This document shows, piece after piece, positions 16,501-25,100 of a stretch of DNA of 64,000 nt. Numbering within the stretch: the stretch's first letter is position 1; every line of letters begins with the position of its first letter. Source of the DNA: an uncultured Clostridia bacterium. GTDB taxonomy: Bacteria; Bacillota; Clostridia; UBA1381. The DNA lies in NCBI GenBank assembly GCA_947591315.1, contig CANQDD010000012.1, positions 1-64,000 on the forward strand, in the 5' to 3' direction. Under the pieces are notes generated by a model. That model was not told where the DNA came from and did not search any database. It was given only the letters and a program-made list of their open reading frames with translations. Position numbers and translations under genes: made by a program.

Positions 16501-19275
16501 ATGAAGAAGCGCGGAGTTGCAATACTGTTTTCGGCTGTTATTTTTGCACTGTTTTTTTCGTTTTCGGCGAACGCGGAGGATTTGCCGAAATTTGATGACA
16601 GCTCGGTTATTGTTGTTACAAAACCCGAGCGCTCGTCCATCGGTCTTTTCAGTATCGGCGAAAGCTTTGACGATGTTCTCGCGAAGCTCGGAATAACTGA
16701 GACAAAGGAGCTTATGGACTTGTCCAGCAACACGAGCTCTATATCGCTGTTTTCCGCGTCGGACGAACGTATAGTAAAACTGACATTGCCCGAAGCCGGC
16801 GAGGACAAGGTGCTTGAAGCCGTTAATATGCTCAACGCGTCCGGTACGGTAAAATATGCCGAGCCGAATTATTATTACTACCTTGACGCCATGCCCGACG
16901 ACTCTGAATACGTGTCTGAAGATGAAGCCAAAACATATCGCTTTCACATGATAGACGCGGAAGCGGTGTGGGAAACAGATATAAACTGTTCCAATGTCAC
17001 GGTTGCTGTGCTTGACTCGGGTATTTTCGCGGAGCATGAGGATTTAAAGGACAACATTTGGACAAATCCCAACGAGATACCGAATAACAATTATGACGAC
17101 GACGACAACGGTTACAAAGATGATGTACACGGCTGGGACTTTACTGGAAGCGGTGACAACGATCCCGACGACGGCTACAACCCGGAATACAACATGCAGG
17201 GACATGGCACGCACATTTCCGGAATAATAAGCGCGGTAACGGGTAATGACAAAGGAATTGCATCACTCGCCGGAAACATTAAAACGGGCAGCGCGAAGAT
17301 AGTGCCGTTAAAAATTTTCTTTGACTACAATGGCGGGAAATCCACCCGTGTCGATATGATTGTGGCTGCGATAGACTATGTAAAGAAAATGAATATACCT
17401 ATTGCAAACTGCAGTTGGGGCGGTTCAAACAATGAGCCGCTTATGCAAGCGATACAGTCCTGTACCGACACACTGTTTGTTGCGGCTGCGGGAAACGGAA
17501 ATAACAATGTTGGAATTGATATGGACAACGCCGCGGCATATCCCGCAAGATACAAATTTGATAACGTCATCTCCGTAGGCGCAAGTAACTCGGATAATAA
17601 GCTCGCGGGTTTCTCAAATTACGGCACGTCGGTCGATATAGCCGCGCCGGGAGTAAATATTTGGAGTACGTGTAATACAGACTTAAAAAAAGACTCATAT
17701 AAATATATTTCCGGCACATCTCAGGCAACACCGCTCGTCGCAAGCATGGCCGCGGTATTAAAAGGAAAATACCCGTCGCTCACTCCTGCTGAAATAAAAG
17801 ATTGTCTGAAGGAGGGCGCAACTATCGCGACCAATCCGGGCAATCATGAAGTGAACGCCAACCGAAGGCTTAACGCCGAAGGCGCGTTAATACGCGCGCA
17901 GTCGCTTTACTGTGAAGTAAAATGGGAGGACGACAAGGGTAATGTTATAGACAGGACATCTGTGCAATACGGTTCCGTTCCGAGCCACGATCCCATCGAA
18001 AAGCAAAAGGACGAGTACGAGTATACATTTGAGCGTTGGGAACCCGAGCCGTCGTATGTAACCGAGGACACAGTATACAGAGCCGTTTTCTCAAAGCAGG
18101 TGGCGCATTATACAGTCACATGGTACGTTGACGGCGTTTCCACGGTCGAAGAATATACATACAATGACACTCCCGTTTACAAGGGCAATACGCCTTCCCG
18201 TGAAGAAACTGATGAATATACGTATGTTTTTAGAGGTTGGATACCCGATATTGAGCCTGTAACGGAGGATGCCGAATATATCGCGGGGTTTGACTCAGAA
18301 ACCAAAACCTACCCCATCACATGGCGCGATGAGGACGGCAGCGTGCTTGCAGAATCCGAAGCCGAATACGGTTCATTACCGGTATACCCCGAGGAAGCCG
18401 AAGAGCCGTCAAAGGAACCCACAGATGAGCTTGAATATATTTTTGACGGGTGGAGCCCCGAGCCGAACATCGTCACGGGGCCTGCTGAATACACCGCAAA
18501 ATACCGTGAGAAGAAGCGCGAATATACCATTATATGGAAGAATTACGACGGAGAGGAAATAGTGCGTGAAAACATTGAGTACGGCGTAACGCCTTATTAC
18601 CTCTATGAAACGCCCGTAAGAGACGACACCGACAGCACTCACTATACGTTTTCGGGTTGGTACCCCGAACCTGTGCCTGTTACCGGTAACGCGGAATATA
18701 CCGCACAGTTTACCGAAACGCAGAAGAAATATACTATCACGTGGAAAGACGAGAACGGTAACATAATCAGAACGGATATGGCCGCAGACGGTGAAATTCC
18801 GAAATACAAGGGCGAATACAATAAAAAGCCGCCGGAGGGATATTATGTGTATATTCCCGACTGGGATCCCGAAATTACGGAAGCTGTCGGTAATGCCGAG
18901 TACACAATGAAATACACCCGCGCCGATATGCTCGAAACATCCGTTATGCTCACGGACGGAGACGGTTATGCCGTCAGAAAGGGCGGCAGCGCGAAGCAGA
19001 TAAACGCGCGTGTCGAATTTCCTAATGCCGTCAAAGGTCTAAGTGAAGCCGATGCTGCGAATGTAGAGCCGTATACGCTTATTGCAGCCGTATACGACGA
19101 GAGCTGCGCTCTTATGGGCATTGCGGAAAAGAATGTAAGAGGCAATGATATGCTGAACTCCGTAACGCTTACGGCTAATTCGGACAAGAATAAAACAATC
19201 GGCTCAATAAAGCTGTTTATGTGGAAAACAACAGGCTCCATGATCCCCATAAGAAACGCAAAAGACGTTCTGTAG
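16501..19275 (+). CDS. Secreted subtilisin-family (S8) serine protease with C-terminal repeats
   Basis: 924 residues. Signal peptide 1-25 (ending FSANA), a propeptide-like segment to about 145, then the catalytic domain with D172 (VAVLDSG), H235 (GHGTHISG), oxyanion N332 (AAAGNGN) and S407 (SGTSQATP). From about 470 to 810 there are five repeats of about 68 residues, each with a W near the start, an FxGW-PEP-like core and a closing AEY-x-A-x-F, similar to bacterial surface B-repeats. The last 115 residues resemble a module in the GH2 protein (see findings). No LPXTG or SLH anchor is visible. GAGGTG six bases before ATG 16501 argues against GTG 16492. The gene follows aroA by 40 bases and may be read from the same promoter. 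Confidence 0.92.
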   Translation: MKKRGVAILFSAVIFALFFSFSANAEDLPKFDDSSVIVVTKPERSSIGLFSIGESFDDVLAKLGITETKELMDLSSNTSSISLFSASDERIVKLTLPEAGEDKVLEAVNMLNASGTVKYAEPNYYYYLDAMPDDSEYVSEDEAKTYRFHMIDAEAVWETDINCSNVTVAVLDSGIFAEHEDLKDNIWTNPNEIPNNNYDDDDNGYKDDVHGWDFTGSGDNDPDDGYNPEYNMQGHGTHISGIISAVTGNDKGIASLAGNIKTGSAKIVPLKIFFDYNGGKSTRVDMIVAAIDYVKKMNIPIANCSWGGSNNEPLMQAIQSCTDTLFVAAAGNGNNNVGIDMDNAAAYPARYKFDNVISVGASNSDNKLAGFSNYGTSVDIAAPGVNIWSTCNTDLKKDSYKYISGTSQATPLVASMAAVLKGKYPSLTPAEIKDCLKEGATIATNPGNHEVNANRRLNAEGALIRAQSLYCEVKWEDDKGNVIDRTSVQYGSVPSHDPIEKQKDEYEYTFERWEPEPSYVTEDTVYRAVFSKQVAHYTVTWYVDGVSTVEEYTYNDTPVYKGNTPSREETDEYTYVFRGWIPDIEPVTEDAEYIAGFDSETKTYPITWRDEDGSVLAESEAEYGSLPVYPEEAEEPSKEPTDELEYIFDGWSPEPNIVTGPAEYTAKYREKKREYTIIWKNYDGEEIVRENIEYGVTPYYLYETPVRDDTDSTHYTFSGWYPEPVPVTGNAEYTAQFTETQKKYTITWKDENGNIIRTDMAADGEIPKYKGEYNKKPPEGYYVYIPDWDPEITEAVGNAEYTMKYTRADMLETSVMLTDGDGYAVRKGGSAKQINARVEFPNAVKGLSEADAANVEPYTLIAAVYDESCALMGIAEKNVRGNDMLNSVTLTANSDKNKTIGSIKLFMWKTTGSMIPIRNAKDVL

Positions 19276-22146: not shown

Positions 22147-25100
22147 TTATTTTGTAACTTTGCCGGTCTTGATTGCCGATATGCCGTCTATCTTGCCTGC
22201 CATCTTGATGATATAGTCTCCCGACGCGGCATTCGGAATATCTATTGATGTAAGATTTGCAAGGTCTACACCGTTTATTTGCTTGATGTAAACAACATCC
22301 TCATCTCTGACGCTCGTCGTTACCGTACCGGGCTTGACAACCATTACGATAACCGGCTTTGATGTATCGAATGTAGGTTTCGCTGTAAACGCCAGTGCAT
22401 CGCTGCTGAATGCAGCCGTTATCGTGCCGTCAGCCTCAGTTACCGCTTCGTTCTCGCTGTTCGAGGTAATCGCGTAGACGTAGAGAACATCGCTGGTCTT
22501 ATCAAAGCCGTCCGGCATCGGCGCGTCCATAGCTATCGCCGACATTTCCTCACGCGCTATGCTCTTCGCCGACATCTTCCTTGTCGTAACGCTCTTAAGA
22601 GTCGTTTCCGTGTTGTCGTATACGGCTACGATAAACGTTACTGTATCGGAGTACGCGAAGTTCTTCGTAACCTTGAGCTGCGTTACCTTCGAGTAATCGT
22701 CATTAAATCCAATCTTATTTATCGTGAATATGTCGCCGGACTGGATCGTAATCTTAACCTCATCGTGAAGTGATCCGTCAAGAGTCTGCGCTCTGAGATA
22801 TACCGTCTGAGGTTCAGCCATTGCGTCGACCGTCATCTTACCCGACGCGTCAACCTTGATAAGATCTGAACCGAGAGGATCGGTGTTGTCCGCGTTGTAT
22901 ACGACCCATCTGATAAGTCCCGCGAGAGTGTTTCCAAACTTAACGCCCTTACGAAGCGCCGTCGCCGTACCCTGTATCGACTGTCCGGCAAACATAGTGT
23001 CCTTATCAACGCTTGCCGTAAGCGCATCGGGAACAATCTTCGCGCAGTATACGTTATCAACGCAGGTGTTCGGATTTATTGCGATATGGTTCGCCTGGCT
23101 TGCACCGAGGTTTCTCATCGGAACGCCTTCCGAAACATACGGTTTGCCCGCTTCACCCGTTTCGGGGTTCACGCGCTCACCGTTAACATACTTATACACG
23201 ATAAGGTTAGCGTACGCGTTATCTACTCCGGTTGCGCACATAATCTGAACATTGTACCATGATTCGGTGTCAACATTACAGTATGTGGGTGCTTTGCTGC
23301 TGTCCTGCTGTATAGCAAGTTTTCCGTCGGCATATTTAACCTGCAAGCCCTGCTTTCCTTTATCGTTGTTATAGACAGTCCAGCCTGCGCCGTTGCCGCC
23401 GAATTTCATATCGGCGCTATAGAGAACATTATTGCCGTTGTCACTTGGGAAGCCGACAAAGTCTGTGGCGGCAGTTATGCTATAATAGCCCGAACCGTCC
23501 CATGAACCTTCCTTAAGCTCGCGTCCGGTCACGATTTCCTCGCACGCGTCGCCGGAAACAAATTCGTCCTTGTTTCCTTCCTCGCCGTCGAGAATCATTG
23601 TTCCGGGCTTAACGGTAAGCTTAATATCGCCGTAAGCGCTGCCCGATATGTTTGCGGCTCTTACCGTTATCTTCTGCGGAATTACGTCCTCGGTTACCTC
23701 TACCTTGCCGTTTGTAACCGTAATGCCGGTATTGCCTGTTTCGCGTATTCCCGCTTCGTTAAGAACAGTCCATACTATATCGTCATTCGCGGGCGTGACA
23801 GCCGTGTCGTTCATCTTTGCCGATACGGTAATTTGAGCCGGCTCATTAAGACGAACATACTCCTTCTCGCTTGCAAGCTCAATGCTGTTAAACGTATCGT
23901 GCGATGTATCTATGGCGGTTATATTGATTCTTACCTCGCCGTACGGGTTGCCCTTTGTCTGTGCCGTTGCTCTTACAACGATAGACTGAGTTTGCGTATC
24001 GGCTGTTGTGAACAGCATATTGTTCTCGATCTTTATTGTGTCATCATTAAGAGGATTGCCCTCCATGTCAAGGATCGACCATTCAAACTCCGGTATCGTT
24101 ACCGTATTGCCGTTTCTCTTGGCAATAGCCGAGAGCATTACGCTTTCATTCGCTTTTATGTCGGTCTTTACAGCCGAAACGTCGACCGTGTTTGCATATA
24201 GCGACGTAACAGTTAGATTATCAATACTTATTCCCGGATTTACCTCAAGCCAATCAGCCACGCCGTTGTTGGTGCTTCCGTAATTTCTCAGATTCATTCC
24301 GGGCGTCTCTTTAATCAGAACAGGCTCGCCGCTTTCAAGGCTGTACAGTCTGCCTACAGCCGAAGGATTAGTGGTCGCCATTGTACCTTCAATTACAAAT
24401 CTGTACCACTTGTTAAGCTCTATCGCACCTAAATCCTGATAGTCATTATCACCGCCGCCCGTCTGTGTCCTGAAACTAGTACCGTTGAACGACATGTTCG
24501 GACCGGTTTTATTATTCTTGTTGGTAAACCTAATGCTTCCCGTCGCTTCATCAAATCGGAAGTCAAACGAAATACGGCTTTCCTTCTGGAGCGTCGCACC
24601 CATGTCTTTTCCAAACGCATTTGATACTTTTGTATCTGATACTGTAAGAACGCCGTCTGTTTCGTCGTCATATGTGAGATTGAGGACTTGTTCCTCACAT
24701 TCTGCGGGATCCATTACCTGAACAGGCACTATGGGCTGCGGCTCACATATAGGCGTCATTCCTTTTAATGAATCCCATAGCATCGCCTTCTGCGTTGTAC
24801 CGCTCGACAAAATTTCCTCCGGAACCGTCACATACTTTGCCGTATTCGCTTCAAGGTCAACATTCTGCGGAGTTACCTTTACAAGTCTGCCATTGTCATC
24901 GTAAGCCGCGAATATAAGGCACGCGCCGGTGACTGCTTCGGGGACGGTGATTGTCACTGTTTTGTGGTCATAAGTCATTTCGCCCTGAACCGACGTAAGA
25001 GAGAAATCTCCGTCAACAGACGCGGGTGAAACGGGAGTATAGTTTATCGCACACGTTTTTGCTTCCGCGTCTTTTGTAAAGGTTACGCCGGGGATGTAAG

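Follow-up and report, generated by a model that had tools for sequence, protein, structure and literature searches.

A predicted Ig-like module on a secreted subtilase, a GH2 enzyme and dozens of other exported proteins of a Clostridia bacterium, and its possible role at the cell surface

In an uncultured Clostridia bacterium, an exported protease and an unrelated GH2 enzyme carry similar short stretches of sequence, which raises the question whether these stretches are copies of one domain and, if so, what such a domain may do. The window analysed here, a stretch of 64,000 nucleotides, encodes both proteins. The S8 (subtilase) protease P0001 (16492..19275, + strand, 927 aa) has a signal-peptide-like start and matches PF00082 over residues 168-446 in a Pfam scan (E 9.1e-50); its C-terminal module, residues 822-927 (18955..19272, +), runs up to the stop codon. 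The exported multi-domain GH2 enzyme P0002 (22147..28515, - strand, 2122 aa), in which PF02837, PF00703, PF02836 and PF18565 all score above cut-off, contains an internal copy at residues 1162-1263 (24727..25032, -). The motifs quoted in a preliminary description of this DNA are all present, YTLIAAVYDE at residue 861 and KLFMWKTTGSMIPI at 907 of the protease and CLIFAAYDDNGRL at 1199, KAMLWDSLKGMTPI at 1243 and TFIVAVYDN at 1960 of the GH2 enzyme, where the residue numbers given earlier were about 20 too low. Between the protease domain and the tail module (window about 17935-18924, +) lie about five imperfect beta repeats of about 65 residues, exemplified by TWKDENG...YTFSGWYPEP...AEYTAQF, which resemble List_Bact_rpt/Flg_new at a score below the Pfam cut-off (16.3 vs 27).

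Compared directly, the protease tail and the GH2 enzyme aligned at 25% over 73 columns (BLASTP E 0.025), a similarity so weak that the two window sequences alone are no proof of homology. Genome searches with the GH2 segment and the protease segment returned 24 and 6 places, respectively, at E ≤ 10, the query itself counted in each. The protease tail and 22 of the 24 GH2-segment places made up a 23-row alignment (A1); the two places omitted are L016, which almost duplicates L014, and L025, taken to be a false match at E 0.34. A profile scan of the genome for further secreted carriers, as suggested in the preliminary description, showed the module to recur: the A1 profile matched 47 places at E ≤ 10 and 44 at E ≤ 0.003, 23 of the 44 being sequences already in the profile. 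When named genomes were scanned with a DNA pattern, at least 119 loci were found, with a profile match present at 115 of 119. A second profile comprised 130 copies from other genomes and zero rows from the window or the own genome (E values on a 6000-sequence scale), 7 of 137 matches having been dropped for an E above 1e-3 or a length under 70 residues. This other-genome profile matched the protease tail at E 6.1e-9 and the GH2 copy at E 1.5e-18. In a control on the fetched own-genome stretches, 0 of 2309 reversed ORFs matched, against 42 forward matches with the own-genome profile and 35 with the other-genome profile. Given these matches and the empty reversed control, the two strong window matches are real homologues, and the protease tail and the internal GH2 stretch are copies of one domain of about 90-105 residues, as had been supposed. 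A further, weaker GH2 match had been placed at TFIVAVYDN; the motif is there, and the domain match around it, a degenerate third copy at residues 1917-2003 (22507..22767, -), is marginal (E 0.0071, filters off) and without the conserved Trp motif K-x-[FM]-x-W.

Both window copies were modelled with AlphaFold2 from alignments of 50 (protease) and 31 (GH2) rows, yielding seven strands plus two short helical segments for the protease tail (pLDDT 83.5) and seven strands for the GH2 copy (pLDDT 88.0). VIA-align ranked 6b6l first for the protease tail (Z 9.4, rmsd 3.1, 97 aligned) and 2vqu first for the GH2 copy (Z 10.0, rmsd 7.5, 97 aligned), the latter being fitted more tightly by beta-galactosidase rows such as 7brs (Z 9.5, rmsd 3.2, 98 aligned). 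Chains of GH2 enzymes thus top the lists for both models, and the matched ranges in them are presumably their Ig-like domains. In the comparison of predicted folds proposed earlier, the two segments do not differ: both are predicted to be Ig-like beta-sandwiches, a fold class that the models support, as they do not any specific family, and the fold so predicted is an ordinary one. Foldseek returned zero rows at E ≤ 0.001 for either model, so that no specific homologous structure is claimed, and sequence searches of the PDB gave a best E of 0.72 with the profile and nothing at E ≤ 10 with the consensus. The top Foldseek row for the protease tail was a porphyran-binding carbohydrate-binding module, 8wae (E 5.4e-3, TM 0.48; VIA-align Z 8.0), which is consistent with a module that steers its host enzymes to plant or mucus polysaccharide, as are its conserved aromatic residues and the GH/PL catalytic domains found on 9 of the 41 scanned hosts, though not on most of the others. 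We consider such a role improbable, as no Foldseek row reaches E ≤ 0.001 and the subtilase, LRR, NlpC/P60, CHAP and flavodoxin-fusion hosts have no common glycan substrate.

Searches against named families placed the module close to two of them and inside neither. No Pfam family reached its gathering score over residues 822-927 of P0001 or 1162-1263 of P0002, no best stretch at E ≤ 0.001 fell on the module in 39 further host ORFs, and no family matched more than one member among 23 own-genome copies. The nearest named family is FxLYD (NCBIfam NF038353), which matched 5 of the 23 own copies at E ≤ 1 (best 2.8e-4). A computed consensus of 132 module copies scores 28.8 bits against the NF038353 cut-off of 23 bits; in contrast, none of 10 real copies scored reached it (best 20.7), the matches listed reach no further than positions 2-63 of the model's 71, and that of the consensus ends before the K-x-[FM]-x-W ... 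MKPL part. Likewise, the consensus grazes PF00703 (23.4 vs 23), with no match at E ≤ 1 among the real copies scanned. The Ig-like domains of GH2 enzymes (PF00703, PF17786) resemble the module in that GH2-enzyme chains occupy the top VIA-align rows, at the Z values of 9.4 and 10.0 given above; however, the identity of the VIA-align rows is about 6-17%, and those domains belong to the enzyme body, whereas the module is movable and sits on many hosts. Since only the consensus passes and the real copies scored stay below cut-off, we describe the fold of the module as FxLYD-like or GH2-Ig-like and do not count the module in either family; as far as tested with the Pfam and NCBIfam models tried, it appears to lie outside any named family. 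In open-licence papers, searched by title and the start of the abstract, we found no description of the module and nothing on 'FxLYD domain', which is weak evidence of absence. The predicted Ig-like fold and the weak resemblance to FxLYD and GH2-Ig domains agree with the main rival to the role proposed below, namely that the module is a generic accessory domain or cap which, like Big_2, FN3 or CARDB, stabilises or spaces extracellular multi-domain proteins and has no specific partner.

The pattern of conserved residues points away from a purely generic domain. In the 23 own copies aligned to the model, Tyr, Trp and Lys/Arg were each conserved in 23/23, and Pro in all 19 copies reaching that column; the conserved K-x-[FM]-x-W ... 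P motif that results is a point against a mere cap. Part of the conservation among the other-genome copies is built in, as the DNA pattern that retrieved them prescribes K, W, D, M, K and P. The own-genome copies escape this bias, yet their retrieval relied on resemblance to the window copies. In strands B, D and E, polar residues alternate with hydrophobic ones; in strands C and F, which carry the conserved Y, K, F/M and W, both faces are hydrophobic. From these residue patterns alone, we infer that an interaction surface may lie on the sheet with strands C and F. In 37 of 145 copies (8 of the 17 own copies reaching that column), the M-x-P-L motif is followed by a lone Cys, which alternates with Ser/Ala and could be an exposed thiol. 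An intramolecular isopeptide bond, prompted by the near-invariant Lys, was considered and dropped, as the Asp after the Tyr is too variable (79/153).

We then asked of the own-genome carriers what they are and where the module sits. The set consists of 43 ORFs, 41 in fetched stretches plus the two window proteins; places on C17 and C21 and those at C23:20935 and C2:47257 lie outside it. A signal-peptide-like start was found in 38 of the 43; of the other five, two are truncated by the limits of the fetched stretch. The rule applied is a crude hydrophobicity test of our own, which lets membrane and cytosolic proteins pass as well (13 ORFs of the window). The module, described earlier as C-terminal, does end at most 8 residues from the stop codon in the protease and in 28/43 ORFs altogether, and it is N-terminal or internal in the other 15, the GH2 copy among them. 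Five of these follow the signal-peptide region directly (C10 36310, C4 61913, C18 25261, C14 9496 and C3 98080), and the remaining ten are placed further in. Only one of the 43 ORFs has a second match at E ≤ 0.01, in addition to the marginal one in the GH2 enzyme, so the module is mostly single copy. A Pro/Thr-rich linker precedes just 4 of 36 copies, which shows that a flexible, detached tail is not general.

With 15 of 43 copies away from the C-terminus, the module is no strict C-terminal sorting signal. The C-terminal domain of the type IX secretion system (T9SS) offers an analogy: it is described in Gram-negative Bacteroidetes as a small, Ig-like C-terminal domain on secreted proteins (PMC4804311), and the module resembles it in being small, Ig-like by prediction, often C-terminal and common to unrelated exported proteins. 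A signal of this kind would need a translocation or sortase machine devoted to it. We regard this as very improbable here, since the module, unlike that domain, is not always C-terminal, occurring N-terminally or internally as just described, TIGR04183 stays below threshold on the module consensus (12.1 bits where 23 are required; E 0.15), and there is just one sortase match in the genome (C12:73977). The non-terminal copies speak for a generic accessory domain, as does the presence of Big_2 on five scanned module ORFs (L201:4707, L204, L187:376, L188:5534 and L214:7902). Such a domain would, on the other hand, hardly be expected to be usually single and mostly terminal, as opposed to tandem between other domains.

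Host types were taken from Pfam scans of 41 of the 43 ORFs (all except L188:1-3189 and L191:7439-12613). They include eight BspA-LRR proteins and five subtilases. The nine hosts with GH/PL catalytic domains comprise a GH2 enzyme, an alpha-L-rhamnosidase, GH43, GH53, GH115, GH30/32 and GH59 enzymes and two PL11 lyases, and three hosts are of wall-hydrolase type, one CHAP protein with a ricin lectin and two NlpC/P60 proteins. There are two alpha/beta hydrolases, two flavodoxin fusions and single hosts with a transglutaminase domain, a cohesin, a copper-amine-oxidase-N domain with CBM_X2, Big_2 only, or an AGA-YXIM galactose-binding type domain; seven of the 41, one of them truncated, have no Pfam match. 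The flavodoxin fusions (L210:5262-6959, +, and L211:9718-11532, -), one with an aldo/keto reductase and the other with DUF362, present a redox domain set unusual for exported proteins. In L206:4206-4940 (+), a cohesin-like domain (E 3.1e-9) is followed by the module. This cohesin match prompted a dockerin/cohesin reading, which was rejected because the genome has a single ORF with dockerin matches above cut-off, on C42, and one dockerin ORF cannot explain 40-odd copies.

As a separate observation, the genome search also revealed on C42 (about 24800-124000, -) an open frame of 33070 aa. It was sampled in four stretches (L254, L255, L256 and L257; 31 kb in total, partly beyond the frame), which contain no N and in which the minus-strand frame stays open. 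Its start, near C42:124000, resembles a signal peptide, and by eye its repeats look like those of RCC1. If the assembly is right, this frame would be a gene of about 99 kb for a giant secreted repeat protein.

The distribution of the module was counted with the A1 profile, the own genome being included at each taxon level. It was found in 40 of 41 sampled genomes of the family (E ≤ 1e-5), with 0 to 83 copies per genome and often dozens; in 53 of 61 genomes of the order (E ≤ 1e-6; 35/36 in the own family and 18/25 in other families); in 55 of 196 genomes of the class; and in 5 of 199 of the phylum. Among the matches listed from named genomes are Clostridia-type and other Bacillota, including Monoglobus, Ornithomonoglobus, Oscillospiraceae and Clostridium rectalis, and several Paenibacillus. 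Taken together, the family and phylum counts and the occurrence in Paenibacillus and others make the module lineage-heavy, not lineage-exclusive. The preliminary description suggested that it might define a secreted-protein set in this lineage: an exported set is indeed marked, given the signal-peptide-like starts in 38/43 ORFs, and the module is not confined to the lineage. Position and copy number were also recorded among the at least 119 loci of other genomes, where the module ends at most 8 residues before the stop codon in 87 of the 123 module ORFs that have one, and 3 of 137 carry more than one copy.

Besides the module, the own genome uses the SLH domain (PF00395), a helical domain that is abundant there, with 87 places; a model made from 28 of the genome's own SLH repeats found it in 43 ORFs. 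The two do not meet: 43 SLH ORFs and 41 module ORFs show zero overlap, neither window protein has SLH, and in the 41 of 43 module ORFs scanned no SLH or LPXTG-anchor family was found at E ≤ 0.001. In other genomes, none of 137 module ORFs has SLH, with 14 SLH ORFs among the at least 119 loci, although a model made from own-genome repeats may miss distant SLH there. How significant the zero overlap is depends on the true number of exported proteins, its probability being 7e-6 for an assumed 200, 7e-4 for 300, 0.0056 for 400, 0.036 for 600 and 0.14 for 1000. Moreover, SLH and module often compete for the same protein end, so the lack of overlap is partly structural; the generic-domain explanation likewise attributes it to the tendency of both to be terminal.

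Homologous proteins that differ in what they carry are more telling. A PL11 lyase with a C-terminal SLH (C9 82619-85408, -) shares 33-39% identity, in alignments of 723-782 columns, with three module-bearing PL11-like ORFs, in two of which the module is C-terminal and in one, an ORF cut at its N-terminal side, internal. Two module ORFs on C2 behave similarly: that at 123450 (-) aligns with an SLH ORF on C4 (41% identity, 445 columns) and with another on C25 (37%, 468 columns), and that at 141173 (-) with one on C6 (42%, 359 columns). Both C2 homologies consist of several overlapping matches each, as in repeat-rich proteins, and SLH is internal in the C4 partner of the former, before an M15 peptidase, which makes the C2 cases weaker and leaves the main weight with the PL11 exchange. 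SLH and module are unrelated in sequence and never stand on one ORF among those examined, and SLH is found in the same genome on proteins whose bodies are homologous to module-bearing ones. For the ORFs examined, some homologous bodies thus carry either SLH or the module, and the PL11 exchange is a stronger argument than the overlap statistic. That an anchor replaces the module on such bodies is a further point against a generic cap, and the exchange, together with the lack of SLH on the module ORFs examined, favours a role in surface handling. Surface sorting, oligomerisation and wall binding, the roles suggested earlier, are candidates only. At C4 58745-63562 (+), the gene of an SLH-bearing M15 peptidase lies directly upstream of a module-bearing NlpC/P60 gene, whose module match has just E 0.0095; both products are possible wall hydrolases.

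What emerges is one domain, predicted to be Ig-like, as a rule present once per protein and mostly right at the C-terminus, on dozens of unrelated exported proteins. We tentatively favour, at somewhat less than an even chance, the reading that it serves as a docking or retention tag used instead of SLH and binds a common envelope partner non-covalently. The module would fold after export and then dock non-covalently through the conserved surface around its Y, K-x-[FM]-x-W and M-x-P-L residues. The partner, common to all hosts, would be situated at the cell envelope and might be a wall polymer or a surface receptor; in this way enzymes, LRR proteins and redox proteins would be kept near the cell without an S-layer anchor. 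Flavodoxin fusions and wall hydrolases of the NlpC/P60 type would be wasted if released, which makes retention the more sensible outcome, by way of argument only. A generic stabilising or spacing domain is the competing reading that we take most seriously, a quite possible one on which we would nevertheless not bet.

Carried further, docking of the module would amount to a second, previously undescribed route of surface display in Clostridia and some Paenibacillus, by which exported enzymes, LRR proteins and redox proteins would all dock at a single envelope receptor through an Ig-like tag; the exported proteome would then be split into SLH-anchored and module-tagged parts of similar size, between which tail swaps switch proteins. 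This broader picture we regard as rather unlikely. The domain itself has no name among the Pfam and NCBIfam models tried; with a name for it, the tails of numerous LRR proteins, proteases and carbohydrate-active enzymes could be annotated together. Should the exchange with SLH have a functional basis, it would give a direct handle on how these bacteria settle which of their enzymes stay on the cell, and the PL11 lyases, which occur with either tail in one genome, would be a ready-made natural experiment.
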